A stretch of DNA of 25,155 nucleotides from a virus, in the IMG/VR virus record IMGVR_UViG_3300025401_000095, positions 1-25,155 of that record, one strand, 5' to 3'. Shown here piece by piece: positions 1,676 through 19,770 of this stretch (positions are counted from its first letter, which is position 1; the number at the start of each line of letters is the position of its first letter). Position numbers and translations under genes: made by a program. The notes under the pieces were generated by a model. It made no database searches and had not been told where the DNA came from. It saw only the letters and a program-made list of their open reading frames with translations.

Positions 1676-1836
1676 GTGATTACCTCGATCATGTCATGAA
1701 GCTCGTTGACCTGATCGCGGAGAGCTTCGACGTCCGCTTTGATGTCCGGCCTCATGACCCGACTTTTGTGTCGCGTGCGAAAGGCATGCAGATTACCTAA
1801 TGCCGCAACATAATCATCGAACTCATTGTTTCCCAT
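1450..1836 (-). CDS. small helical protein whose frame runs through the DUF3310 gene
   Basis: The chosen start at 1836 lies 14 bases inside the end of the phosphoesterase gene; a longer version only adds antisense-like residues. Up to about residue 54 the protein looks coding: NNEFDDYVAALGNLHAF, a basic stretch, then an amphipathic helix (ADVEALRDQVNELHDMI). After that the frame continues for about 225 bases inside DUF3310, where composition becomes Ser/Arg/Lys-rich and reads like an out-of-frame shadow. Either the gene truly overlaps, or its original stop has been lost, or the N-terminal part is meant to be joined to DUF3310 by a shift of frame. Function unknown. The N-terminal half is the trustworthy part. 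Confidence 0.45.
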   Translation of the reverse strand: MGNNEFDDYVAALGNLHAFRTRHKSRVMRPDIKADVEALRDQVNELHDMIEVITCALQSLSSSKITKAKTIRSTRVITKKVKLSASAPLRRSSRPRSSEVTSKARSSSTSGARIRRAAPRTSKKRIGI

Positions 1837-2593
1837 AGCGTTCTCGTAATGTGTCGATGCGTAACGGCACCAGGTCATAATCGCCATTATGAACGCAATC
1901 CAACATCACGATACCGTTCCATTCGACCCCTTGGACGTCATCGGGCCGGTAATGCTCGTTGCGGGTGTAGAACCGACCGCACACCAAGCCGTGTTTGACG
2001 TGGTTCGGGTACACCTTGGAAGCGTACATGAACCCTTGCTGATGCCCTTGCACGAACGACCGCCCGATGTTGCCGAGGCGCGCCGTGATGGCCCCACCGA
2101 TGGGGCGACCGCTAAATGGGTTGGGGAAATAGTGGCAGTACGATATTCCGTCGATTTCCACGATCTTGAGGAACGGGTGACGGGTAAACCACGGGGTTTT
2201 CAGGCTGTCGAGGTTGATGATGCCTTCCCATTTGGGGTCGCGAAATATAGCCCTCGTCAGCCGATCTTCGTGGTTTCCGAATAGAAAATGGCATTGCGGA
2301 TTCCACATACGCCGCTTCTTCGTTGCCAAGCGTATGCGCTCGCGCTCAATGGGCGTGACCAACCGTTCAAACGCCTCATTGCCGACTTCAATGTCGGTCA
2401 GTACGCGTCGACCTTCGGCCTCTTTCGATCCCGGAGCGTCGTGGGTGGAGAGTGACGGTAGATCCCACCAATCCCCCAACACCACAATGACGTCGGGCTT
2501 GAGGTCCACGATGGCCCGTGCCGCCCAGTCGATGTGCGTGAAATCGTCGCCCGGCTTCGCTTGGACGTCCGGGATGACAATATGTCGCGCCAC
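1823..2593 (-). CDS. calcineurin-like metallophosphoesterase
   Basis: A 256-residue protein with metallophosphoesterase motifs in order: IPDVQ (7-11), VVLGDWWD (37-44), LFGNHEDR (104-111), YCHYF (152-156) and VQGHQQG (181-187). Such enzymes use two metal ions to hydrolyse phosphoesters; phage members have mostly unknown substrates. Two usual His ligands differ: the first motif is normally Asp-x-His but here is D9-V-Q11, and the last is normally Gly-His-x-His but here is G-H184-Q-Q186. Asp9, Asp41, Asp44, Asn107, His108, His154 and His184 remain. The start is GTG at 2593, one base after the upstream TAA; an ATG two bases before it belongs to another frame. Confidence 0.85.
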   Translation of the reverse strand: MARHIVIPDVQAKPGDDFTHIDWAARAIVDLKPDVIVVLGDWWDLPSLSTHDAPGSKEAEGRRVLTDIEVGNEAFERLVTPIERERIRLATKKRRMWNPQCHFLFGNHEDRLTRAIFRDPKWEGIINLDSLKTPWFTRHPFLKIVEIDGISYCHYFPNPFSGRPIGGAITARLGNIGRSFVQGHQQGFMYASKVYPNHVKHGLVCGRFYTRNEHYRPDDVQGVEWNGIVMLDCVHNGDYDLVPLRIDTLRERYGKQ

Positions 2594-4864: not shown

Positions 4865-6187
4865 TCATTCATAGGTGAATTCGAGGGCGTAACCGTGCTT
4901 ATGCAGCTCGGGTATGTCTTTTTCCATCTTCTCGTGGCAATCGTCGCGGAACATCATGTCCGGAACGTGCAGTTCCTTAATGACGCCATAAGCGCGCTCA
5001 GCGGCTTGTTTGACCGACTTGCCCGTACCTGTCACCACCGCCAGATAATCGCCACAGGTGGCCCACATGGGCTTTTCAACGATGTTGTCGCCTTCCATCT
5101 GGGGCAACACTGCCATCTTGACCGACTGGGGCGCGATGTAACGGCGGTTCTTCGGGGTCACGCCGTAAATCGGGATGTCCGTGACTTCCTTCTGTGTGGC
5201 GTTGCTGTGGGGATAGTCCGGCTGCGCCACGACAATGCCGCACGCGATGGCGGTGCTGACATCGAGCGTGTCTTCACCTTTGCAAGCGTCCAGCATCCAT
5301 TCCACCGGATCGCCTTTGTGGGTCGCGAGCATGATGTTAAACGCGGGCCAACCAGGGCGCATCGTGAACTCTAAAGGCCACGCCTTGCCTTTCTCGTCAA
5401 TGATGCAGTTGACGTCGATGTCGCCCAGGTGACCCATTTGGATCAGGCTGTCCTCCAAAGGCGCTAGCACCTCGTCAAACAAGACGGATTCGGTGCAATA
5501 CTTCATGACCGTGCCGGACTCGCCACAATTCGGCCCCGCGTCGCCCGATAACAATTTCTTGCGCTCAAAGTTCTCGTTGGGCAATCCGACCCAGCCGTCA
5601 GCGCCAAGCCAACGCGAGACCGCGAACTCCACGCCCGGGATGAATTGCTGCAACATACACGGGCCTTTGAGGGTCATGCCGAGCTTCTTCCATCGCTGGA
5701 TACGCGCCACCATGTCGGCGGGCGTCTTGCCGACGTACGACAGCGACTTATCTTCCTCGCTGCCTAACGTCTTGAATACGTGCCGCTCGCTCGACTTGCG
5801 TTGGTACGCTTCAGCAGCGTCAAGGTTCGGGAACGTCTTGAACTCAGGGCATTCAATGCCGTGCTTTTCCAAGAACTTCATGCCCAGTTCGCGCTTGATC
5901 TCAAGGTCGGCGCTGGCCTGTGACGGTCCAAAAAACTTGATCTGACCTTTTTGCATCACGCCGATGCGGGGCAGGAACTTGTCGTTGCCGGTGGCAAACA
6001 CGAGGTCAGCCCACTTGAACGAGGTGGCCCAGTTGTCAATGTGTTCAACGCCCGGGAAACCCTTGCCGAATTCGTATTTCTTCTCGGCGGGCTTGTAGTA
6101 ACGCACCTTATGGCCGGCTTGGACGCAGCGCAGCACAAAGTCTAGGCCGCAGCCGGCGTCCTCAAGCTCAATCACGAGGACTTTCAT
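4865..6187 (-). CDS. PurD-like ATP-grasp ligase
   Basis: A 440-residue protein resembling phosphoribosylamine-glycine ligase (PurD/GARS), an ATP-dependent carboxylate-amine ligase. Visible features: PSQASADLEIKR (88-99), GVEFAV (185-190), SGDAGPNCG (214-222), IDVNCIIDEKGKAWPLEF (257-274) with ATP-grasp metal-binding acidic residues, and a PurD-like C-terminal AAERAYGVIKEL (395-406) ending in FRDD. Two PurD hallmarks differ: the N-terminal GGREHAL-type phosphate-binding loop is replaced by EDAGCGLDFVLR (9-20), and the FGDPE-type loop is replaced by RPGWPAFN (277-284). ATP use is likely kept while the substrate has probably changed. It is coupled by ATGA to the ejection gene upstream. Its role in the phage is unknown. 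Confidence 0.8.
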   Translation of the reverse strand: MKVLVIELEDAGCGLDFVLRCVQAGHKVRYYKPAEKKYEFGKGFPGVEHIDNWATSFKWADLVFATGNDKFLPRIGVMQKGQIKFFGPSQASADLEIKRELGMKFLEKHGIECPEFKTFPNLDAAEAYQRKSSERHVFKTLGSEEDKSLSYVGKTPADMVARIQRWKKLGMTLKGPCMLQQFIPGVEFAVSRWLGADGWVGLPNENFERKKLLSGDAGPNCGESGTVMKYCTESVLFDEVLAPLEDSLIQMGHLGDIDVNCIIDEKGKAWPLEFTMRPGWPAFNIMLATHKGDPVEWMLDACKGEDTLDVSTAIACGIVVAQPDYPHSNATQKEVTDIPIYGVTPKNRRYIAPQSVKMAVLPQMEGDNIVEKPMWATCGDYLAVVTGTGKSVKQAAERAYGVIKELHVPDMMFRDDCHEKMEKDIPELHKHGYALEFTYE

Positions 6188-8325
6188 TGCGGTTGATCCT
6201 GTTGGTCAGCCATGCCGCGGGTGATTGTAATCGTTGGAATCGTGCCTTTGCGGCGCAAGCTTTCCAACGTCTGGCCTTCGCGTGCGGCCTTCTCCAACGG
6301 ATTCTGCACAGCAGCTCGAGCGGTGCGACCGGCTGCGCCCATTTCTTTAAGCTTTGCCGCTTGTTTGACTGCGCCGGCCACAAATTCAGTGCCGATGTAT
6401 TTGCCGCCCAAACCGCCCAACGTGTCTAGCACGCCCAAAAGGTGCTTGAACGTGGGGCTTCCTTTCCAAGCGTTGGCATCTTCGGTCTTGATGATTTCCA
6501 ACGCCTCAACAGCGTCCTTCAACTTCTTAGCGCCGGCTTTGCCATATAGGATTTCAAGCTTTTCCGGGCCAATCTCGTTCACCGCGTTACGGAAAGCATT
6601 CCAGCCGATCACCGGGTCGCCTGGCATATTGGACGGACCGCGTGTGGCCTTCGACAACAAGTAATCCGCGGTGGCGGCACGGACGTCGTCAAACGCCTTT
6701 GTGCCTTTGGCGACCAGTGCCTGCGTCCGCTTTGCGCCCAACCGACCGGCCTCCACCGGCTTGGTCAGCGAATCTTTCAGCTTCTGTAGATCTTCAACTG
6801 AACCCGTGATGACCGACTGGCGCCAAACATCTTCCAGCGCCACGGCTTTTTCTTTCGACAATCCGCGAGTCTTGACCAAACTTTCTACCGCCCGCGTCCG
6901 CTCGAATTCTTCGCCAACCTTGCGCCGAGCAGCTCGAGCAGCCGCATACGCTTCGCCACCTTTGCCTTCGGTAATGCGGTCGATCAGGTCAGTAATCTCG
7001 CCGGCGTAATGGCCTTTATCGCCGCCGGCCAACTTAGCGGTCGTCGCTGCTTTACGGACAATTTCCAGTTCTTTCAGCGTCAGTTCGCGGGTCAGCCGCA
7101 GTCCGTTCTCGTCAACAACGTACGCGTCCTTGGGCAGCTTGTTTTTTACGTACGGGATCAAACCCGGGTCGCCATGCGTGTTGACATGATCGGCCAGTTC
7201 GCCGGCGTTGACTGGCGTGTCGCCGGCCACGCGCTCTGCCGTGCGGTACAGGCGGCTGACGCCACGCTTCAACGATTGATACTTGGCCTCCAGCGCCTCT
7301 CGAACGCCGCGCCCGGCGCCTGTGCTTTCGTACGGCAATACGCCGCGGTCGCCACGCAACAGCGACAAATTGTTCAACAGCTGTTTGTTTTGCTGAATTG
7401 TCAACTGGCGCAAATCCTCGCCGCCGGCCAACTGCTGCGCTTGAATTTCTGCCTGACGCTGCAAGGGATCGCGGGTCAGCTGCCCTTGTGTGGCTTCCGT
7501 GATGCCGACGCTGCGGAGCTTGTTGAGTCGCGCTACCGCCGCGGGGTCCAGCTTGTCTAACGTCTTGGCGTTACGCGCCACCGTCAGCAGCTGCTTGTAA
7601 ACCGACTCAACCAATTCGTTTTTGTTGATGCCCATTTTCTGGGTCACGAACTCGTCAACCTGACGCGTCGCCTTGGCAATGTCTGGACCGGACAGGCCAG
7701 CCAACGGGTCGTCCGTAGTGCCCGCGGCTTTTCCCGGAACTTTGCCAACGGCCTCGCCCACGGCGCCGCCGGCCAGACCGAGCCCGCCGGCCGTCAAGGC
7801 CTGCTCGCCTTTGCGGACCAACGTTGACCCCGGTTGCGTTTGTTGCGTTGGCGTCATGGCGCCGATCAGGGCGTTGTAACCCGCCGTCTTGCCCATACGC
7901 GCCAACGCGCTTGCGCCTTTGATCTCAGGCATTAAACCCATGTAGATAGATTCAGCAGCAGCTCGAGGAACGTCTATGCCCTTGTCACCAGCCAGTGACC
8001 GCTGCGCCTGATAACCCGCCTCAAGCTTTCTGTACGATTCGGGCGCCACAATTTCCATGCCCGCCAATATCGGCGCACCGACGCCCATGGCCAAACCTTC
8101 GGCACCGGCGGTCACCGCCGCTTGTTCTTTGGCAGTTGGTTTGCCGCCGGGGATGAATGCGCCAGGTTGACCCATTTCCCCGCCCGTGCGACCAGCGGGG
8201 CTTTCCCACCAATGCCGTTTGGGTAAAGCTTGAGTTGGCGTACTTGCCAAATACGCGTCGGGGTCAAACCCGCCCGTAGGCGCCGCCGGCGTTCCTAAAT
8301 ACGCATCTGGGTCAAAGTCAGCCAT
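6184..8325 (-). CDS. large ejection (internal virion) protein, gp16-like
   Basis: A 713-residue protein, the largest of three consecutive proteins in the place where P22 encodes its ejection proteins gp7, gp20 and gp16. These are packed in the head and injected with the DNA to build a channel through the cell envelope. The N-terminus has a repeated motif, FDPDAYL at 4-10 and 20-26. Residues about 90-200 contain Ala/Gly-rich, weakly hydrophobic stretches (VTAGAEGLAMGVGAPILAGM) that could insert in membranes. The rest is mostly charged helix. I see no lysozyme or transglycosylase motif. Family assignment rests on size, position and composition, not on a specific motif. Confidence 0.7.
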   Translation of the reverse strand: MADFDPDAYLGTPAAPTGGFDPDAYLASTPTQALPKRHWWESPAGRTGGEMGQPGAFIPGGKPTAKEQAAVTAGAEGLAMGVGAPILAGMEIVAPESYRKLEAGYQAQRSLAGDKGIDVPRAAAESIYMGLMPEIKGASALARMGKTAGYNALIGAMTPTQQTQPGSTLVRKGEQALTAGGLGLAGGAVGEAVGKVPGKAAGTTDDPLAGLSGPDIAKATRQVDEFVTQKMGINKNELVESVYKQLLTVARNAKTLDKLDPAAVARLNKLRSVGITEATQGQLTRDPLQRQAEIQAQQLAGGEDLRQLTIQQNKQLLNNLSLLRGDRGVLPYESTGAGRGVREALEAKYQSLKRGVSRLYRTAERVAGDTPVNAGELADHVNTHGDPGLIPYVKNKLPKDAYVVDENGLRLTRELTLKELEIVRKAATTAKLAGGDKGHYAGEITDLIDRITEGKGGEAYAAARAARRKVGEEFERTRAVESLVKTRGLSKEKAVALEDVWRQSVITGSVEDLQKLKDSLTKPVEAGRLGAKRTQALVAKGTKAFDDVRAATADYLLSKATRGPSNMPGDPVIGWNAFRNAVNEIGPEKLEILYGKAGAKKLKDAVEALEIIKTEDANAWKGSPTFKHLLGVLDTLGGLGGKYIGTEFVAGAVKQAAKLKEMGAAGRTARAAVQNPLEKAAREGQTLESLRRKGTIPTITITRGMADQQDQPQ

Positions 8326-9842
8326 TAGCGCACGCCCAACTTCTGTTTGATCGCCGCCGCTCGAGGATCGTTCGGGTGAGCGTTAGCCCACGCCAACGCG
8401 CTTTGATCCTGTGCCGACATGGTAGGTCCACCCCCACCGCTACTAGGGGAACTGGGGGGAGGGGACCCAGCTTGGGGGGTTGTAGCGGCAGGGGTGGGTG
8501 TCTCGTTTCGCGCCTGTGCGCGGACTTGGCCGGGCGCTGCCAATGCGGCCTGCGTCTCGGTGATGAGCTGCTTGACCACGGCTTCGTACGCCTGTTGCGA
8601 CTGCGCGGTGTTGAGCATCTCGTTAGCGTGTTCTTTGTCGGCAACGTGTACCGTGCCGCCGCCGACCGCTCGCGTGTAAGCGTTGACCAACGACAACGTC
8701 GCAGCCTTGAACGATGCAAGCTCGGGGCTTTGCACCTGCGTGTCCTTGTATTGGGACAGCTTGTTCCACGGCAGGAATTGACCTCGAGGAACCTTGGCCG
8801 ACGCGTCCAACGCAATCGTGGCAAAGTTCTGAGCTTCTTTGACCGCAGTGGCAATTTTGCCTTCACGCGCCGAAAGCTCAAGTTCAGTGCGACGCTCACC
8901 GGCTCGCGTGATGCCGGCTTCCGTAATGGAACTCCCGGACTTGCCGGCGGTCATTGCCGCCACCGCGTTATCAATCTTGCGGATGTTTTCGGCGCCCTGC
9001 GCGCCACGACCGTAGCCCGCGATGACCTGATTGCGAGGTTCGCCGCCAACGATCCGTTCAGCCGCTTGTCGTATGGCGTCAGCCGACAACGGATCGCCCT
9101 TACCTTCAGCCGCCTTGCCGCGCATGATGTCCAACCGCTCGCGACCTTGCTCTTCCATGTTCTCGCGGTGCTTGATCTCGCTTTGAACATTTTCGCTTTC
9201 GCGCTTTTCTTTTGCTTGCTTAGCAAAAAATTCCTGCGCCGTCCTTGACGCCGCCATCGCGGAATTGATGCCGCCCAACAATGCGCCCGGCTGACCCGAC
9301 AGCATGGTCGAGATCTGCTGGATGTCTTGTTGATTCAGCACCTTTTCGCCGTTGGGCAGCGTTTGCTTTTGCAGCGTGTCGAGGGTCTGTTTAAACGCCG
9401 GCAGCAGCTGCGCCTCAATTTGCCCTGGTGGGATACCTTGCTGCGTCGCCGCTTGAATCTGCTGATACATCGGCATGATGGCCGACGTCATGATCTCGTG
9501 CTTTTTCTGGTACGTGTCAAGCTGCGACGCGCTCAGTTCTTGAGAGCGACGATCCTGCTCGTCAGCCATCCGCATAAAGTCCATCGCGTACTTGCCGCCG
9601 ACTTCCTTTTGCACCCGCGACGCCAGCTCGTGACGCTGCTCGGGGTTGCTCAGGTCGTATTGTTGCGACAGCGTCTTGATCTTGGACAGATCCGCTTGTT
9701 CTTCGCGCTGCGATTGCAACGTCATCTGGTTCATTTGACGTCGGTCGATTGCGTCGGCCAACGTGTATGCCTTCATCGTAGAACCGGCGATGTCTGGCCC
9801 GTTCTGGCCAATACTGGCGATGCTTTGCGGATCAATAGCCAT
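8325..9842 (-). CDS. ejection (internal virion) protein, gp20-like
   Basis: A 505-residue protein, rich in Gln, Ala and charged helix, with no membrane segment. The start at 9842 is chosen because GGAGG lies 8 bases upstream and the codon follows one base after the previous stop; an ATG 63 bases earlier adds residues inside the preceding gene. The last 31 residues (475-505) form a compact motif including ALAWANAHPNDPRAAAIKQK, found at the ends of many phage internal or tail proteins. It is preceded by a Pro/Ser/Gly linker (PPPSSPSSGGGG). Position between the other two ejection candidates supports a role in DNA delivery. It overlaps the next gene by TAATG. Confidence 0.72.
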   Translation of the reverse strand: MAIDPQSIASIGQNGPDIAGSTMKAYTLADAIDRRQMNQMTLQSQREEQADLSKIKTLSQQYDLSNPEQRHELASRVQKEVGGKYAMDFMRMADEQDRRSQELSASQLDTYQKKHEIMTSAIMPMYQQIQAATQQGIPPGQIEAQLLPAFKQTLDTLQKQTLPNGEKVLNQQDIQQISTMLSGQPGALLGGINSAMAASRTAQEFFAKQAKEKRESENVQSEIKHRENMEEQGRERLDIMRGKAAEGKGDPLSADAIRQAAERIVGGEPRNQVIAGYGRGAQGAENIRKIDNAVAAMTAGKSGSSITEAGITRAGERRTELELSAREGKIATAVKEAQNFATIALDASAKVPRGQFLPWNKLSQYKDTQVQSPELASFKAATLSLVNAYTRAVGGGTVHVADKEHANEMLNTAQSQQAYEAVVKQLITETQAALAAPGQVRAQARNETPTPAATTPQAGSPPPSSPSSGGGGPTMSAQDQSALAWANAHPNDPRAAAIKQKLGVR

Positions 9843-9843
9843 A

Positions 9844-10566
9844 TCAGGGGCCTCCGAAAATGTCGCCAAAGCCGCTGGTCTGCGGGGTGGATAACGTCGG
9901 GGCAACGTATGGTGATGCGCCGACTGCGGATCCGCCCTGTAGCGCCTTGAGCGTGTTCATGGTTGTGTACTGGTTCATGGCATTGTTGATGGATCCGGTG
10001 ATGCCGCCCATTTGGCCGATGGCGATGTTGGCCTGATTTTGGCCTTGGTTCATCGCAATGTTGCCGATGTTGGATGCGGCCTGACCGACGTTTGCGGCTT
10101 GACCCGCCGCTGCCGCTTGGCCCAACTGAACGGGTGCCAGAAGGTTCTGGAGTTCTTGCTGATACGTGGAATCAGCCAAGCCTTGGTTGTACTTGGACAG
10201 CGCTTGCAGAGTGTTGCCAGAAAGTCCCATGCCCATCGCGCCGGCCGCGGCCAACGTCTGCTGCTGGCCCTGTTGCTGCTGAAACTGATACCCGGGCATA
10301 TTCTGCAAGGTCTGCTCCGCGAGTTGCGGGTTGACCTGACCGTTGGCGCCGATGCCCAACAGGTTCTGGTACGCGCCCATCGCGTTCTGCCCGAGCTGAC
10401 GGTACGGAGCGGACAACTGGGCTTGTTGCTGTAGCGCCGCCTGTTGCTGCGCAATAGCGGCATTGGACGCGTCTCGGGTCGCGGATGCGGCCTCGCTACC
10501 GGCGATCATGCTACCGGCGGCACCGACTACTGCGGCTCCTGCGATAGCCCCTGCGACTCCACTCAT
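9844..10566 (-). CDS. small ejection protein, gp7-like
   Basis: A 240-residue protein with an Ala/Gly-rich hydrophobic N-terminus (AGAIAGAAVVGAAGSMIAGS, residues 5-24) that could insert in a membrane or be a transient signal as in other injected proteins. It is followed by Gln/Ala-rich helix (IAQQQAALQQQAQLSAPYRQ). Patterns such as LGQNAMGAYQNLLG and LQNMPGYQFQQQQGQQQ are typical of podovirus DNA-transfer proteins. The ATG overlaps the upstream cupin-SET stop (ATGA). It is the first of three ejection-type genes in P22-like order. Low sequence complexity limits certainty about the exact family. Confidence 0.75.
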   Translation of the reverse strand: MSGVAGAIAGAAVVGAAGSMIAGSEAASATRDASNAAIAQQQAALQQQAQLSAPYRQLGQNAMGAYQNLLGIGANGQVNPQLAEQTLQNMPGYQFQQQQGQQQTLAAAGAMGMGLSGNTLQALSKYNQGLADSTYQQELQNLLAPVQLGQAAAAGQAANVGQAASNIGNIAMNQGQNQANIAIGQMGGITGSINNAMNQYTTMNTLKALQGGSAVGASPYVAPTLSTPQTSGFGDIFGGP

Positions 10567-11414
10567 GACTGCGCTCCGATCTGTAGGTTAAGTGCAAGGG
10601 CGTCCCGGTAGTTCACCGTGATTTCCTCGCCGTCAAAGCCTCCGCGACAGCCCACTATCGGGCGTAATGCTACCAAAATAATGCGGTCGCCTGCATTGAC
10701 AAATTTGCAATTTGGGGTAGGAGAATGGTTGGCATAGCGTCCCAACGGCGTCCGCAGGGTGCCGATCCGTGCGGGACCGATGAATTCGCCCGCCGCGATG
10801 TCAGCCGTGGCAATGACGCCCTTGCCCTCAATGAGCGACGCGCCGATTTTGACCTTGTAGGCCCCAAACGGCAGCGGGATCAGGTCGTCCATATTCTGGG
10901 ATACGGAACGGGCATACGACTCGGGCACGTTCAGCTCGGCCAGCACTGTGGCGTAATCGTCACGGTCGTGGCCGATTAAGGCGACGTTTTGCGTCAGCCG
11001 GTGCTGCTGCTGCGCCTCGGCAAACTCCTCGGTCTTGTCGAAATACATGGCCTCGAGCTTGTCAATGTCGGTCTCGTCGGTGGCCCAGACGTTCAGCCAC
11101 ACGAGGTCGGTCTCAACGTAGCCGACTTTTCGCCCTGGCTGACTGACAAAGGTCATCGGCGCTTTCATGGGCTGATGCCTGCCGTCGCACATGATCATCG
11201 TGCCGCTGCCCTGCACAAATACGTTTAGGTGCGGCTCGCGGTGCTTGTGGGTGACCACATACGTGCCGCCGGGAATAGACACCTCTCGGATGTACATTCC
11301 GGGCGCGAATATGTGGCGCACGCTGCACGTCTGCTGTGGCAACCGGTGCATTTCGGCTTCCAGTTGATCCAGTTTCTCGCCATGCCCCTCAACCAATTGC
11401 GCTATTGCGGTCAT
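10563..11414 (-). CDS. cupin-SET domain fusion, putative lysine methyltransferase
   Basis: A 283-residue protein. The start at 11414 is chosen for its ATGA overlap with the previous stop; an ATG 12 bases earlier is possible. Residues about 33-125 form a cupin barrel: APGMYIREVSIPGGTYVV, metal-type histidines in THKHREPHLNVFVQGSG (55-71), and VSQPGRKVGYV. Residues about 183-272 form a SET domain: IEGKGVIATADIAAGEFIG (195-213), RYANHSPTPNCKF (226-238) and GEEITVNYRDAL (262-273), which are the cofactor-binding Asn-His and catalytic Tyr motifs of protein lysine methyltransferases. No cysteine-rich pre- or post-SET is present. Target unknown. A phage SET protein fused to a cupin in a tail-ejection operon is unusual. 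It could methylate virion or host proteins. Confidence 0.8.
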   Translation of the reverse strand: MTAIAQLVEGHGEKLDQLEAEMHRLPQQTCSVRHIFAPGMYIREVSIPGGTYVVTHKHREPHLNVFVQGSGTMIMCDGRHQPMKAPMTFVSQPGRKVGYVETDLVWLNVWATDETDIDKLEAMYFDKTEEFAEAQQQHRLTQNVALIGHDRDDYATVLAELNVPESYARSVSQNMDDLIPLPFGAYKVKIGASLIEGKGVIATADIAAGEFIGPARIGTLRTPLGRYANHSPTPNCKFVNAGDRIILVALRPIVGCRGGFDGEEITVNYRDALALNLQIGAQS

Positions 11415-11884
11415 TTGCCCACCCATCCCGTGTTTGTCGCCGTCCCCGATTCTTTGACGTAGAGCGTCGTCCCCGCGCCGCCCGACTTGTTGAGATACAG
11501 GTCACCCGGGTTACCGGTGACGGATCCGTTAGGGCTTCCCGTGCCGGTCCGTATGGAGACGGCGTTGATCGTGGGTGTGCCGGTCAGGGCCGGTGACGAT
11601 AGCGGCGCCTTGAGCGCCAGATCGGCTGTCAGGCCCGTGACTTGCGATTCGGTAATGGTAATTGCCGTCTGGTCGATTCCGAGCGTCAAGCTGGCCGACA
11701 ATAAACCGCCGCCCGTCAAAGGTGCGGTGGTGGATAGCGGGGTGGATGCGCCCAGAAAGCCACCGGTTGCACCGCTGACGCTGATGTACTGGTACAGTTG
11801 ATTGAACCACGAACGCCAGACTGGCGTGAGCAAGTCCTTGGAGCTGATCTGTGGCCCAGGTATTGGCGATAACGGAGCGGTCAC
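11411..11884 (-). CDS. short tail fibre or tail-tip protein
   Basis: A 157-residue protein starting with GTG that overlaps the previous stop (GTGA). The N-terminus (PGPQISSKDLLTPVWRSWFN) may attach to the tail. The middle contains the tail-fibre repeat type SQVTGLTADLALKAPLSS followed by PALTGTPT. The end contains NGSVTGNPGDLYLNK and LYVKESGTATNTGW, a small beta unit common at phage fibre C-termini. In P22 the gene after gp10 encodes the tail needle gp26, so this could play a plug or tip role, but I see no long needle coiled coil. Fibre or tip protein is the safer call. Confidence 0.7.
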   Translation of the reverse strand: MTAPLSPIPGPQISSKDLLTPVWRSWFNQLYQYISVSGATGGFLGASTPLSTTAPLTGGGLLSASLTLGIDQTAITITESQVTGLTADLALKAPLSSPALTGTPTINAVSIRTGTGSPNGSVTGNPGDLYLNKSGGAGTTLYVKESGTATNTGWVGK

Positions 11885-13302
11885 TGTTCGCCCTCGCGGA
11901 TCGTCACTGCGCCGTCGGTGATGGTGAACTGCACCGGATCTGTGAACCGGATGCGGAATACAAAATCGCGGGACGATCCGAACCGACGGGCGATCAGGCG
12001 CTGACGGTAGTTGCCCAACGCGCCGAGGCTCAATTGCCGCGGCGTGGAATACGTCCTGCCGTTGTCTTTGCTGACCTCTAACATGACGCAGGGTGCCGAC
12101 CCTTGACCGGATACGAGGCCCACGCCTGTTTCCATGTCAAGGTAGATCTCGTCGATGCTGAACACGTTGAAGTTGTTGGAACCGTGACGGGTGATCAGTT
12201 CGCGCGGGATGATCGCCCCGTTGTCGGTGTAGGTCGCAGTGTCGTAGCGATCAATGTTGCCCGAGTTGTATTCCGACACGACGGTGTAGCCGTTGAAATA
12301 CGTGGAGTGCTGGGCGATGTGTCGGGTGCTGTATTTCGTGGTCAAGCCCGTTTGGGTCTCGCTCCACAAGCCCGATGCCGTGTCGTATAGGAACGAACGA
12401 TCCGCAGTCGGGAACGTGATCTGGTACATGGGATGCCCGTTGACCATGTACGAGAGCGCAATGGCATCCGATACGGTGGACATCTTGGACATGATGTAGT
12501 CCATGTCCGGCGTTGAGATCACGGTGATGTTGTAACCCGCGATCTGCACTACCTGCGGCGCCCCTTGGGGGTTCATCGCCAAGACACAGATGGTTTGATT
12601 GACGTGCGCGCGCGAGTATATAGCAGCGATACCGAACTCAGACGTTGCCGAGATGATCGGCGCGAACGGCTCGGGTGACGTACCGACGTTCTGCCAGAAT
12701 TCCGTGTGCTTCTCGCTGAACAGTACGAGGTTACCAATCAGGGCGTCCACAGCCTTTATGTTGTCGCTGTACTGAGCCGCCGACGCGAATGCCAGGGCGT
12801 TCCACGTGGAACCGTCGTACAGGTTCGAGACCCAGAAATACTGGCTACCCGGCTGCTCGCACACAAAATAGCCCGAGACAAACGTCACGGTGTTGGCGCC
12901 GTTGGGGAACCCGGGCGACGTGATCGGACCAAACGCGCCGGTAGCCGGTGTGTACAGGTAACCGTTCACGCCGTCCACGATCACGACCTGCGACGGGTTG
13001 TTCGCCATTGAGACCGTGCCTGAATTGGTGTTCAGGGCGCCGATGGTGGTGCGCGCATACGACGTGCTGACCGAATAGACATTAGAGCCAGCCACGACGT
13101 ATAGCAGCGACTGGGTGCCGAGCATTCGTCGGATGACCCCAGGCATCGTGCCGAGGTTGACCAGTCCGGGCGTCCCGTAGACGACGATATTGGCCTTGTC
13201 GCCGTCGGGGCGCTGCTCGAAATAGCAATTGAGGCGTCGCTGTGCCGTGACCGGCAGCGACCTCCCCTGAATGCCCGCCCCGAACATCGGTACGACTTTC
13301 AT
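11881..13302 (-). CDS. P22 gp10-like packaged DNA stabilisation protein
   Basis: A 473-residue protein, nearly the length of P22 gp10 (about 472), which forms part of the tail hub that closes the portal after packaging. The family look is clear: an N-terminus with GRSLPVTAQRRLNCYFEQRP (residues 14-33), YGTPGLVNLG, then a long beta-propeller-like body with VVIVDGVNGYLY, VSGYFVCEQPGSQYFWVS, LVLFSEKHTEFWQNVG and RSFLYDTASGLWSE. The order gp4-like then gp10-like matches P22. Its start overlaps the gp4-like stop by TAATG. This is one of the best-supported calls in the window and defines the short-tail type. Confidence 0.9.
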   Translation of the reverse strand: MKVVPMFGAGIQGRSLPVTAQRRLNCYFEQRPDGDKANIVVYGTPGLVNLGTMPGVIRRMLGTQSLLYVVAGSNVYSVSTSYARTTIGALNTNSGTVSMANNPSQVVIVDGVNGYLYTPATGAFGPITSPGFPNGANTVTFVSGYFVCEQPGSQYFWVSNLYDGSTWNALAFASAAQYSDNIKAVDALIGNLVLFSEKHTEFWQNVGTSPEPFAPIISATSEFGIAAIYSRAHVNQTICVLAMNPQGAPQVVQIAGYNITVISTPDMDYIMSKMSTVSDAIALSYMVNGHPMYQITFPTADRSFLYDTASGLWSETQTGLTTKYSTRHIAQHSTYFNGYTVVSEYNSGNIDRYDTATYTDNGAIIPRELITRHGSNNFNVFSIDEIYLDMETGVGLVSGQGSAPCVMLEVSKDNGRTYSTPRQLSLGALGNYRQRLIARRFGSSRDFVFRIRFTDPVQFTITDGAVTIREGEQ

Positions 13303-14318: not shown

Positions 14319-15962
14319 TTATGCCGCCTTGTTAAGCGCCTGATGGATTTGCGGCGCGATGACCGCCCATGCCATTTCGTCGGTGATTTCGATCTGGCAT
14401 TGCGCGATGCCCATTGGCTTGCCCTCATCGTCCAACGAGTTTTTGCAATGATCCCACCCGTAATGCAACTGATGGCACGCCGGGGCCTCGTTGTCGCCAC
14501 GGCCCGGGCAATGCGTGTTCTTGGCAATCAGGGCGTGCGTGTTGATCCAATCTCGCGTCAGATTTTCAGAGGTGGAGTGAGAAAGGAACACGACCTTGGC
14601 GACGTTCTCGTGCGATACCGCGTTCAGCACGCCCGTTTCCGGGCCGATCACCATGTCCGCGACCTGAGCAAATGCCATCGTCTCGCGGATCGTCCAGTCG
14701 CCCGACATGGGGTGTACGCGCGGATCCGTTGGTATCTTCTTGCCCGCCGCATCGCGCAACGGCATCCCGGTCTCGTCAACCTTGAACCAACCCTGTTCGA
14801 GCAACACCGCTGACGGGCCGCCCACCATGACGATATGGACGTTCGGGAACTCCAGCAGCAGCGCCGCCACGATGTTGTCCACGTAGGGCCACGTCTTATG
14901 TACGGACGATCCGGCGAGCGACCAGACAATGGTGTAATCGCCCATCGCGGCCTTCGTCGCCTTCGCCCACGCCTGTTCTTCGGGTGTCGCGTAGAAGTGA
15001 ACCGCCGGTTTGTGCGGTATGCCCGCGGCATCGTGTTGCAGCTCAAGGTAGTTGACGTTGGTCAACTTGTGCCGCAACTTCGGTGGGACGCCGTGCAGGA
15101 ACCGCCCAGGCAACGCCAGCAGCGTCCCTTCAGCCGACTCCGACAGGTTTACCCACTTGTCGTATTTGGCCTTCTGGTAGTCCCAGAACGCGCCTAAAGC
15201 GTGATTCGGGACCTGATCCTTGTCCTGATAGTAGAACTCATCCACGTTCGGATCGTGCAGGATGACGTCCGATCCCGGCGGAGAGCAGTACACCGTGACG
15301 TGGTAGCCCTGCTCCTTGAGGCCCTTGAACACCGAGGACGCTTGCACGATGTCGCCGAATGCGCCGTACCGTACCACCGCGGCTCGCTTGACCTGCAATT
15401 TCGGTTTGGAGCAACTGAACGTGTGGTGCTTTCCCTTTTTCTGAAACACGAAAAAAAGCGAGTATTCGTCGTTCTGATCGCGTCGCTGCCAGTCCACCAG
15501 ATCCCAACAACCCGCCTTTTCCATCAACTCAACGATAAGTTTGTACGAGACGTTCCATTTGTGGTCGGGATTGGCGCCGTGTTCGCCGACCTTGGGGTAC
15601 AGCGTCTCGTCGGGTAAATACAAAACGAGGTAGCCGTTCAACTTGATGACGCGCAGCCATTCCTTCAGGCACTTCACCACGTTGTCAAACGGGATGTGCT
15701 CCAAGACGTGCGACGAGAACACAAAGTCCATTGACTCCGTGCCGAACAGCCGCAGGTCGGCGGCGTCGTCAATCCACACGTCAGGTTTGAACTGGTGGCC
15801 GAATAACTGGATGTCCGCGCCGTTGTCCACACCGATCATGTGCGGGAACGCTTTGTTCGGGCCGCAGCCTACATCGAGGCCACGGCCACGTGTCCACTTG
15901 ACCAACTCCCATCGAATCTTGCCCGATTCGTTCCCCTGCGGATCATCTGCTTTCCAGACCAT
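14319..15962 (-). CDS. methyltransferase-glycosyltransferase family 9 fusion
   Basis: A 547-residue two-domain enzyme. Residues about 25-175 are a class I SAM methyltransferase: LDVGCGPN (29-36), acidic IGVD (43-46), and FVFSSHVLEHIP (80-91). Residues about 193-540 resemble glycosyltransferase family 9 (ADP-heptose transferases): VRYGAFGDIVQASSVF (197-212), GYHVTVYCSP, WSLAGSSVHKTWPY (347-360), and the donor-site motif GPETGVLNAVSH (440-451). Cys485, Cys496, Cys506 and Cys522 form a C-terminal cluster, perhaps metal-binding. A GGAGG site precedes the ATG. It sits right after the glycine-rich adhesin and its small partner, so it may modify an adhesin or the host surface glycan; substrate is unknown. 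Confidence 0.85.
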   Translation of the reverse strand: MVWKADDPQGNESGKIRWELVKWTRGRGLDVGCGPNKAFPHMIGVDNGADIQLFGHQFKPDVWIDDAADLRLFGTESMDFVFSSHVLEHIPFDNVVKCLKEWLRVIKLNGYLVLYLPDETLYPKVGEHGANPDHKWNVSYKLIVELMEKAGCWDLVDWQRRDQNDEYSLFFVFQKKGKHHTFSCSKPKLQVKRAAVVRYGAFGDIVQASSVFKGLKEQGYHVTVYCSPPGSDVILHDPNVDEFYYQDKDQVPNHALGAFWDYQKAKYDKWVNLSESAEGTLLALPGRFLHGVPPKLRHKLTNVNYLELQHDAAGIPHKPAVHFYATPEEQAWAKATKAAMGDYTIVWSLAGSSVHKTWPYVDNIVAALLLEFPNVHIVMVGGPSAVLLEQGWFKVDETGMPLRDAAGKKIPTDPRVHPMSGDWTIRETMAFAQVADMVIGPETGVLNAVSHENVAKVVFLSHSTSENLTRDWINTHALIAKNTHCPGRGDNEAPACHQLHYGWDHCKNSLDDEGKPMGIAQCQIEITDEMAWAVIAPQIHQALNKAA

Positions 15963-18270: not shown

Positions 18271-18717
18271 CTACAAACGATCGAGGTAATTGTTCCTTTC
18301 TATAAACCCACCGACGTTATCGTAGAAGGCATCGTTGTGCTCTCTCGTGTATTCATCGTCCGTTTGTAGCAACTTTTTCTTGCTAAAGCCGACGCGCAAC
18401 GATTGCGCGGTCAACTCGTTGTTCGTCAAATCGCCTCGAGCGTACTCGGTCGGCATGTTGCCCGACACGTTGATACCCATGCGGCGGATGTCGACCACTT
18501 CCTGATCTTCAATGTCCATGCCCGGGGGCAGGCTGTTAAAGAACGCGGCGTTGTTCATAAAACGCGACGCCGCGTCCCCGCCCGGCACACCTTCGCGGCC
18601 GGGCATCATCTTCTTTGACCGAGCTTCCATGTCGGTCAGCCAGCCATGCTGATTTTCTGCGCTTGACTGTTTGTCCGGGTAGTTAACCTGGAACTTCTCT
18701 TGCACGATCTTCGGCAT
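18271..18717 (-). CDS. small head-module protein, paralogue B of the SLPPGMDIEDQEV pair
   Basis: A 148-residue hydrophilic protein. Residues about 61-80 contain NSLPPGMDIEDQEVVDIRRM, shared almost exactly with the upstream gene, and both start with Met-Pro-Lys-Ile. The rest differs: an N-terminal part with EKFQVNYPDKQSSAEN and a charged C-terminal part with FSKKKLLQTDDEYTREHND. AGGAG precedes the ATG. No known family. Position after the capsid and decoration genes suggests a virion or assembly protein. Confidence 0.72.
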   Translation of the reverse strand: MPKIVQEKFQVNYPDKQSSAENQHGWLTDMEARSKKMMPGREGVPGGDAASRFMNNAAFFNSLPPGMDIEDQEVVDIRRMGINVSGNMPTEYARGDLTNNELTAQSLRVGFSKKKLLQTDDEYTREHNDAFYDNVGGFIERNNYLDRL

Positions 18718-18731
18718 GACTGGCTCCTAGG

Positions 18732-19214
18732 TCAGACTTTCTTGCGGCCGATGTAATTGGTTTCCGCAACGCGGCCCATGTCCTTCGTCTTAGGCATCAT
18801 GGAACCCGCGCTGCGGTAGACCCAACCATCGCCCGGATAGCCAAGGCCGCCTTGGTAGGCGTACACGTCCATCTTGCGGATGTCCGAGACTTCCTGATCT
18901 TCAATGTCCATGCCCGGGGGCAACGAGTTGTAGAACGCGTTGACGCCGTACTCGAGGCCCTTCTTGACCAAATATCCCGAGTTGCGGACGCCGACCAGCT
19001 CGTTGTGAACCATCTCGGCGCTGTCCGGCAGCACCTCAACGTCCGCAACGTGCTGACCCTTCATCTCGTGACGCTTCTGGGCGCGAGCGTTGGCCGACTT
19101 GATGACGTCCGTGTGCGACGGCGCTTCGCCGCCGTACATTTCGGTTGCGAGCTGGTCCGGGGTGACCTGCGGCGTTTCGTACATCTTCCGACCCGGCTGA
19201 GTGATCTTAGGCAT
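18732..19214 (-). CDS. small head-module protein, paralogue A of the SLPPGMDIEDQEV pair
   Basis: A 160-residue protein. The start at 19214 has AAGGAG six bases upstream; an earlier ATG would add 17 residues that lie mostly inside the preceding gene. It begins PKITQPGRKMYETPQVTPDQ and carries NSLPPGMDIEDQEVSDIRKM in its second half, matching the next gene. The C-terminal part is Gly/Tyr-rich (YAYQGGLGYPGDGWVYR) and basic at the end (NYIGRKKV). No family recognised. The shared motif lies in otherwise different sequences, which suggests duplication followed by strong divergence, or a shared binding site. Confidence 0.72.
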   Translation of the reverse strand: MPKITQPGRKMYETPQVTPDQLATEMYGGEAPSHTDVIKSANARAQKRHEMKGQHVADVEVLPDSAEMVHNELVGVRNSGYLVKKGLEYGVNAFYNSLPPGMDIEDQEVSDIRKMDVYAYQGGLGYPGDGWVYRSAGSMMPKTKDMGRVAETNYIGRKKV

Positions 19215-19224
19215 ACGTTTCTCC

Positions 19225-19770
19225 TTAGGCGACCACGTTAGCGAGCGGCAGAACCGAGTAGTCAATCGTGATGAGATTGACCGACGACGTGTCCGTGCCG
19301 TTCACAACGTAGATCTGATCGCCCTGGTTGATGGCGAGGCCGTTCAGACCCGCCGAACCCGTGGACGTGTTGAGCGCCACCTGCGCCACCGCACCGATCT
19401 GACCCGTCGCCGTGCCGTTCGCAAACAGCGTGTCGACGTAGAAAGGACCGATCGTGGAGGTCGACAGGGACGGCGCGACGCCGGCGGAGGCCGTGTTGGT
19501 GATGCGGATCAGCGAGAGCTGCGACGCGTTCACGTGGACGGTGGCCGCGGTTGAGGAACCCGCGTAGTTGTAGTACTGGGTCGCCGTGTAGGTCGAGGTG
19601 CCAGCCGTGGTTGTATAGGCGTTGAGCCCGAACAACAGCATGTTGGCGTGTGCCACGAACTTGCCCGAGACGCCGCCCGAACCCGCCGTCATCACGGTGG
19701 CGAAATTGCCACGCGCGATGTAGGCGGCGTTGTCGTAGGCCATATTTTTGGTCGTATTCTGAAGTGACAT
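19225..19770 (-). CDS. capsid decoration-type protein
   Basis: A 181-residue Ala/Thr/Ser/Gly-rich protein with almost no Lys or Arg after the N-terminus. It begins SLQNTTKNMAYDNAAYIARG and continues with long beta-type runs (TTAGTSTYTATQYYNYAGSS, then AATVHVNASQLSLIRITNTA). A middle segment contains GPFYVDTLFANGTATGQIGA and a final part GDQIYVVNGTDTSSVNLIT. Directly downstream of the major capsid gene (12-base gap) is the common place for decoration or head-stabilising proteins. No motif distinguishes it from a minor capsid or fibre protein. Confidence 0.65.
   Translation of the reverse strand: MSLQNTTKNMAYDNAAYIARGNFATVMTAGSGGVSGKFVAHANMLLFGLNAYTTTAGTSTYTATQYYNYAGSSTAATVHVNASQLSLIRITNTASAGVAPSLSTSTIGPFYVDTLFANGTATGQIGAVAQVALNTSTGSAGLNGLAINQGDQIYVVNGTDTSSVNLITIDYSVLPLANVVA

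Follow-up and report, generated by a model that had tools for sequence, protein, structure and literature searches.

SET is the fold best known from histone-methylating enzymes and, to our knowledge, studies of SET methyltransferases have almost all concerned eukaryotes and a small number of bacterial pathogens. In phage P22, the gene order 4-10-26-14-7-20-16 places gene 14 (L098:8911-9366) just before gene 7, and its product, gp14 (DUF2824, PF11039), is annotated as a head morphogenesis or virion stability factor. The proteins of PHROG 12032 and PHROG 24280 (PHA00672; phages VvAW1, BA3, and VPMS1) are about 140–190 aa long. A close relative in an isolated phage is gp30 of Rhodoferax phage P26218 (PHROG 34170), encoded between gp31 and a DNA ejection gene; it is annotated as hypothetical and 'similar to putative tail fiber protein' of Ralstonia phage RSK1, with no description as a cupin-SET protein.

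The window, i.e. the whole stretch of viral DNA that was analysed (25,155 nucleotides), showed the order portal, capsid, gp4-like, gp10-like (Hc3), a 157-aa fibre-like protein, cupin-SET, gp7-like, and two large presumed ejection proteins. The genes around the cupin-SET gene were the following:

11881–13302, minus strand: head closure protein Hc3, P22 gp10-like (phrog_578, 1.6e-93)
11411–11884, minus strand: fibre-like protein of 157 aa in the position of P22 gp26 (needle), from weak tail-fibre PHROG matches and position
10563–11414, minus strand: cupin-SET gene (PHROG 34170), an ORF of 283 aa, from the phrog_34170 match and the AlphaFold2 model
9844–10566, minus strand: DNA ejection protein, P22 gp7-like (phrog_598, 1.4e-27)
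8325–9851, minus strand: presumed P22 gp20-like ejection protein, from position only
6184–8325, minus strand: presumed P22 gp16-like ejection protein, from position only

This order matched that of P22, with the cupin-SET gene in the place of gene 14. The gene shared four bases with each neighbour (ATGA at 11411–11414 and at 10563–10566), and these overlaps on both sides mark it as a coupled member of the operon; an alternative in-frame ATG is possible four codons upstream, at 11426. Across 80 IMG/VR loci a gp10-like gene was found in 61 and a gp7-like gene, which in most cases overlapped or abutted cupin-SET, in 59; the order among relatives was gp10, a small gene in some cases, cupin-SET, and gp7. 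Wherever the flanks could be read, the slot was the same. Cupin-only relatives occupied it in phages of Thalassomonas, Vibrio, Shewanella, and Dickeya and in Manatee Spring phages. The T7-like phages of Sphaerotilus and Variovorax encoded a cupin-only protein with tail tubular protein B on one side and the first internal virion protein on the other, which is where gp13 sits in T7.

Several other genes of the window were of interest in their own right. Between the ejection and tail genes lay a 440-aa ATP-grasp or GARS-like enzyme (4865–6187, minus strand; GARS_A 2.5e-6) with no match in PHROG, which could be a ligase for assembly or an auxiliary gene. Within the structural block, a 547-aa protein (14319–15962, minus strand) combined a class I methyltransferase domain at its N-terminus (Methyltransf_11, 8.8e-9) with a C-terminal region resembling a glycosyltransferase by eye; this gene was near cupin-SET in eight related loci. 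Two adjoining small genes between the capsid and gp4-like genes (18271–18717 and 18732–19265, minus strand) had a common stretch like FxNSLPPGMDIEDQEVxDIRxM, which makes a tandem duplication likely. A metallophosphoesterase (1823–2593, minus strand; phrog_221, 7.9e-37) was present amid the late genes.

The cupin-SET protein matched PHROG 34170, a family of unknown function, over nearly its whole length (1.6e-69; aa 16–277 against positions 21–283 of the 296 in the profile, a full-length match), and it was 43% identical to P26218 gp30. In the AlphaFold2 model built from a 53-row alignment (pLDDT 91.4, pTM 0.87), a helical linker separated two strand-rich halves, one N-terminal and one C-terminal. 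Foldseek matched this model in the PDB to cupins and to two SET domains, those of MLL1 and SETD8. The TM-scores were modest because each target covers one half only and because the phage protein lacks a region present in the SET targets. Mean pairwise identity among relatives was 59% for the cupin, 35% for the linker, and 58% for the SET domain. The first-pass annotation had proposed a cupin-SET fusion adjoining ejection genes, and the profiles, the model, Foldseek, and the neighbouring genes all bore this out. The parts of the protein were placed as follows:

11031–11336, minus strand: cupin domain, aa 27–128 with approximate boundaries (phrog_12032, phrog_24280; Foldseek matches to solved cupins)
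11229–11252, minus strand: THKHREPH histidine cluster, aa 55–62, lineage-specific
10872–11030, minus strand: variable helical linker, aa 129–181 (helices in the model; low identity)
10599–10871, minus strand: minimal SET domain, aa 182–272 (Pfam SET match, PDB profile matches, Foldseek matches to MLL1 and SETD8)
10818–10826, minus strand: GxG motif of the SAM loop, aa 197–199, with both glycines in 77/77 relatives
10722–10754, minus strand: RTPLGRYANHS, aa 221–231, the subfamily signature and the NH cofactor motif (conservation among 77 relatives)
10608–10631, minus strand: GEEITVNY, aa 262–269, with the conserved Glu and the catalytic Tyr (E264 in 77/77, Y269 in 76/77)

The C-terminal half matched Pfam SET (PF00856) at 3.3e-9 with 37.5 bits against a gathering threshold of 22.4, so that by sequence its assignment is far above chance. 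A profile of 53 relatives searched against the PDB found MLL1 (1.3e-7), vSET (7.8e-4), and further SET enzymes, and the Foldseek E-values for this half were 7.9e-5 for MLL1 and 9.3e-5 for SETD8. The predicted structure contained the SET fold that the first-pass annotation had expected, and pLDDT was above 90 across most of the domain. The stretch RYANHSPTPN, on which that annotation had partly relied, corresponds to aa 226–235, and the SET motifs it named proved to be real and conserved. The core (GxG, NH, Glu, and Tyr) was complete in 76 of the 77 distinct relatives, and the remaining one ends at a contig end; the SAM-binding residues were thus present across the homologues. R221 was found in 76/77, and T222, R226, N229, and H230 in 77/77; together with G225, residues R221, T222, and R226 define RTxxGRYxNH as a signature of the subfamily. 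The fuller signature was also seen in 75 of 80 rows of another set, more divergent and collected with the SET half and from genome contigs. These counts are to be read with the selection in mind, as each locus from the scans was selected by at least one of two scan patterns, the TxxGRYxNH and GEExTxxY stretches. GxG was not among these patterns, and the relatives found by tblastn in phage records, with no pattern selection, likewise retained all core SET motifs.

The phage SET has the GxG, NH, Glu, and Tyr motifs in common with vSET of PBCV-1, MLL1, and SETD8, but most of SET-I is gone. The spacing from GxG to NH was 30 residues in all 77 relatives, compared with 57–65 in bacterial SETs where it was measurable and 64 in MLL1 in the PDB profile alignment. 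This short spacing indicates that the SET-I region is essentially absent, and the Pfam match, which spans only positions 62–104 of the 105 in the profile, fits such an absence. The phage domain also carries its own RTxxGRYxNH signature, and most members carry a GCxGGxxGEE insert, which vSET, MLL1, and SETD8 do not have. SET-I is a usual but variable part of SET domains that the motif-based definition does not require; in known SETs it contributes to the substrate groove.

The cupin-SET protein is quite probably an active methyltransferase. The apparent loss of SET-I counts against the reading as a lysine methyltransferase proposed below. The same loss could be taken to mean that the SET fold turned non-enzymatic and forms the tip of a short tail fibre, with a structural or receptor-binding role; the fibre names given to the cupin families and the repeated gain and loss of SET at the C-terminus would suit such a role. 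The cofactor and catalytic residues are, however, the best-conserved part of the domain, opposite to what a receptor-binding tip would show, and no experimental source for the 'short tail fiber' naming of these cupins was found in the open-access literature. We consider a fibre tip improbable.

The cupin half was below threshold by sequence in Pfam (Cupin_2, E 0.021). The N-terminal half alone matched phrog_12032, named 'short tail fiber protein', at 4.4e-30 and phrog_24280, named 'tail fiber adhesin', at 3.1e-23, and the Foldseek search with the model found many solved cupins in the PDB at E-values of about 1e-5 to 1e-4. The proteins of these two families have the same cupin half and the same gene slot as cupin-SET but lack the SET half. 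Clustered histidines had been pointed out in the cupin half: the THKHREPH cluster is indeed there, but it does not hold as a conserved metal site, as H58 was found in only 23/77 relatives. The SET-fused relatives showed an invariant H34, common H56 and H62, Gln at position 58 in 53/77, and Gly or Ala at position 98, close to the motif-2 His. In cupin-only relatives, position 56 was Lys, Arg, or Ala, and position 58 was His. Among the relatives, the metal residues of cupin motif 1 (HxH...E) and motif 2 (H) were not conserved. Some cupins have lost their metal-binding residues, and histidine positions that vary between lineages make a fixed metal site unlikely here; the cupin half probably has a structural or scaffold role.

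An enzymatic cupin half, e.g. a metal dioxygenase or a JmjC-like lysine demethylase that pairs with SET as a two-way switch, would draw on the cupin fold detected by Foldseek, the histidine cluster of the window's lineage, and the H34 that is invariant among SET-fused relatives. The other histidines are not fixed, with H56 replaced by Lys, Arg, or Ala in cupin-only relatives and H58 by Gln in most SET-fused ones. The HxD/E...H triad is absent, and among the Foldseek matches listed there were mostly small cupins and no JmjC demethylase. A metal enzyme or demethylase was accordingly left without support as a candidate, and we regard it as highly improbable.

Searching 50,697 phage records by tblastn with the cupin-SET protein gave 8 records with a query coverage of at least 80% (one of zth2-2, three Manatee Spring records, two of Rhodoferax P26218, and two of Pseudoalteromonas PH1) and 33 more that match the cupin half only. 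In IMG/VR, at least 477 cupin-SET relatives found by profile were confirmed, which rules out a rare one-off fusion; on these matches, environmental podoviruses commonly carry the fusion. The first-pass annotation had called it unusual within a phage tail-ejection block, a view that does not stand beside these loci and several isolates. When IMG/VR was scanned with the SET half alone, 76 of 77 loci were cupin-fused, and the other one ends at a contig end. GTDB genomes gave 13 loci, mostly on phage-like contigs inside MAGs. Among 399 genomes of the order of the starting Paraburkholderia MAG (taken as Burkholderiales), the full-length fusion was present in that MAG only, six genomes had the cupin only, and the other matches were ordinary bacterial SETs. 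A host-borne gene or a prophage-only trait was thereby ruled out. We found nothing relevant on phage cupin-SET in the open-access literature. Cupin-SET is thus a widespread phage protein, absent from the literature searched, in which a minimal SET sits on the cupin of a podovirus slot; the folds themselves are known.

In a tree of 104 cupin domains, which contains many open forks and some long rows, the labels SET-fused and cupin-only needed nine changes on the best tree, at least two of them on well-supported branches. Close relatives differing in SET were locus L301 and Thalassomonas phage BA3, and also L315 and L364, a cupin-only locus in a bacterial genome. Such a patchy distribution is as expected for an activity added to a core scaffold. 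A Paraburkholderia ferrariae prophage had separate cupin (L118:9680-10408) and SET (L118:10405-11127) genes with a 4-base overlap, behind a helicase-like gene. Their adjoining, overlapping arrangement links the two functions without fusion and suggests that the cupin and SET parts cooperate even as separate chains. A Comamonadaceae prophage had a SET-only gene of the same subfamily (L116:9860-10426) between replication genes and a gp7-like gene. With these two prophages, the tie to the virion block is not absolute.

The substrate was approached through the neighbouring proteins. No lysine conserved across the SET-bearing phages was found in the gp7-like and gp10-like neighbours, which the comparison covered, portal and capsid lying outside most flanks. 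The gp7-like proteins were lysine-poor, with 2.0% lysine in SET-bearing phages versus 3.0–3.1% in those without SET. A conserved lysine of gp7 or gp10 was thus rejected as the substrate, which weakens the simplest idea of ejection or tail-protein methylation and leaves another particle component, no single conserved site, or a host protein as the target. In the last case, SET would be an active lysine methyltransferase, produced late or entering the cell together with the ejection proteins, that modifies a host protein, with the cupin only as carrier, and could for example alter host translation or defence. Accessory functions directed at the host are typically gained and lost in the patchy manner seen for SET, and the SET genes near replication genes in the two prophages would also agree with a host target. 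Fusion to a slot protein in the late virion block in 76/77 loci speaks against it, as delivery to the host is not obvious from there, and nothing points to ejection of the cupin-SET protein. We consider a host target possible but rather unlikely.

The two predicted folds, the fixed gene slot common to the cupin-only relatives, and the conserved SET core can be regarded as established from sequence and model. Our best reading, held with moderate confidence, is that cupin-SET may be a SAM-dependent protein lysine methyltransferase mounted on a virion-assembly factor, with its target in the tail or ejection apparatus. The protein would serve P22-like podoviruses as a virion-assembly factor, made late from a gene coupled to its operon. 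Its cupin half would perform the assembly or docking job common to the slot members, at tail or ejection proteins, and carry the SET half to its target. The minimal SET would then bind SAM and, during particle building, methylate a lysine on a nearby protein that would belong to the tail or ejection apparatus or be attached to it.

P22 gp14 shares with cupin-SET the slot just before gp7; its sequence is unrelated and its fold is different. The gp14 model from a 27-row alignment reached a pLDDT of 79.6 (five models ranged from 56 to 80) and showed the strand and helix order of GNAT. The 50 Foldseek matches listed were N-acetyltransferases or related acyltransferases (best 3.3e-9, TM about 0.76), and the fold predicted for gp14 is that of a GNAT acetyltransferase. 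The gp14 profile matched 0/157 IMG/VR cupin loci and 0/16 phage-record cupin loci; the cupin profile matched 0/160 gp14 loci, which are closely related, so that this mutual exclusion represents many copies of few events. With no gp14 match in the cupin-SET loci and with differing folds, homology of cupin-SET to gp14 was ruled out. T7 gp13 gave weak spermidine-acetyltransferase matches (E 0.4–0.5), and hhalign gave no match for it as a GNAT protein or gp14 homologue. The stretch from the tail nozzle or needle genes to the first ejection gene may be a dedicated virion-maturation slot of podoviruses that, depending on the lineage, holds different protein-modifying folds (GNAT in P22, SET on a cupin here) or a bare cupin scaffold. 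We offer this only tentatively and think it unlikely; the recruitment of modifying folds is supported by one contrast, SET versus GNAT. If true, acyl- or methyl-marking of a particle component would be a general, unrecognised step in short-tailed phage assembly.

Hundreds of slot-bound phage SETs without SET-I would offer a minimal SET domain for enzymology, and the family would be an early sign of a role for lysine methylation in phage assembly or infection. The comparison with P22 makes the slot idea testable in a model phage, where gp14 is a little-explained gene product with a predicted acetyltransferase fold. The chief interest is that phage lysine methylation and the gp14 slot become testable.
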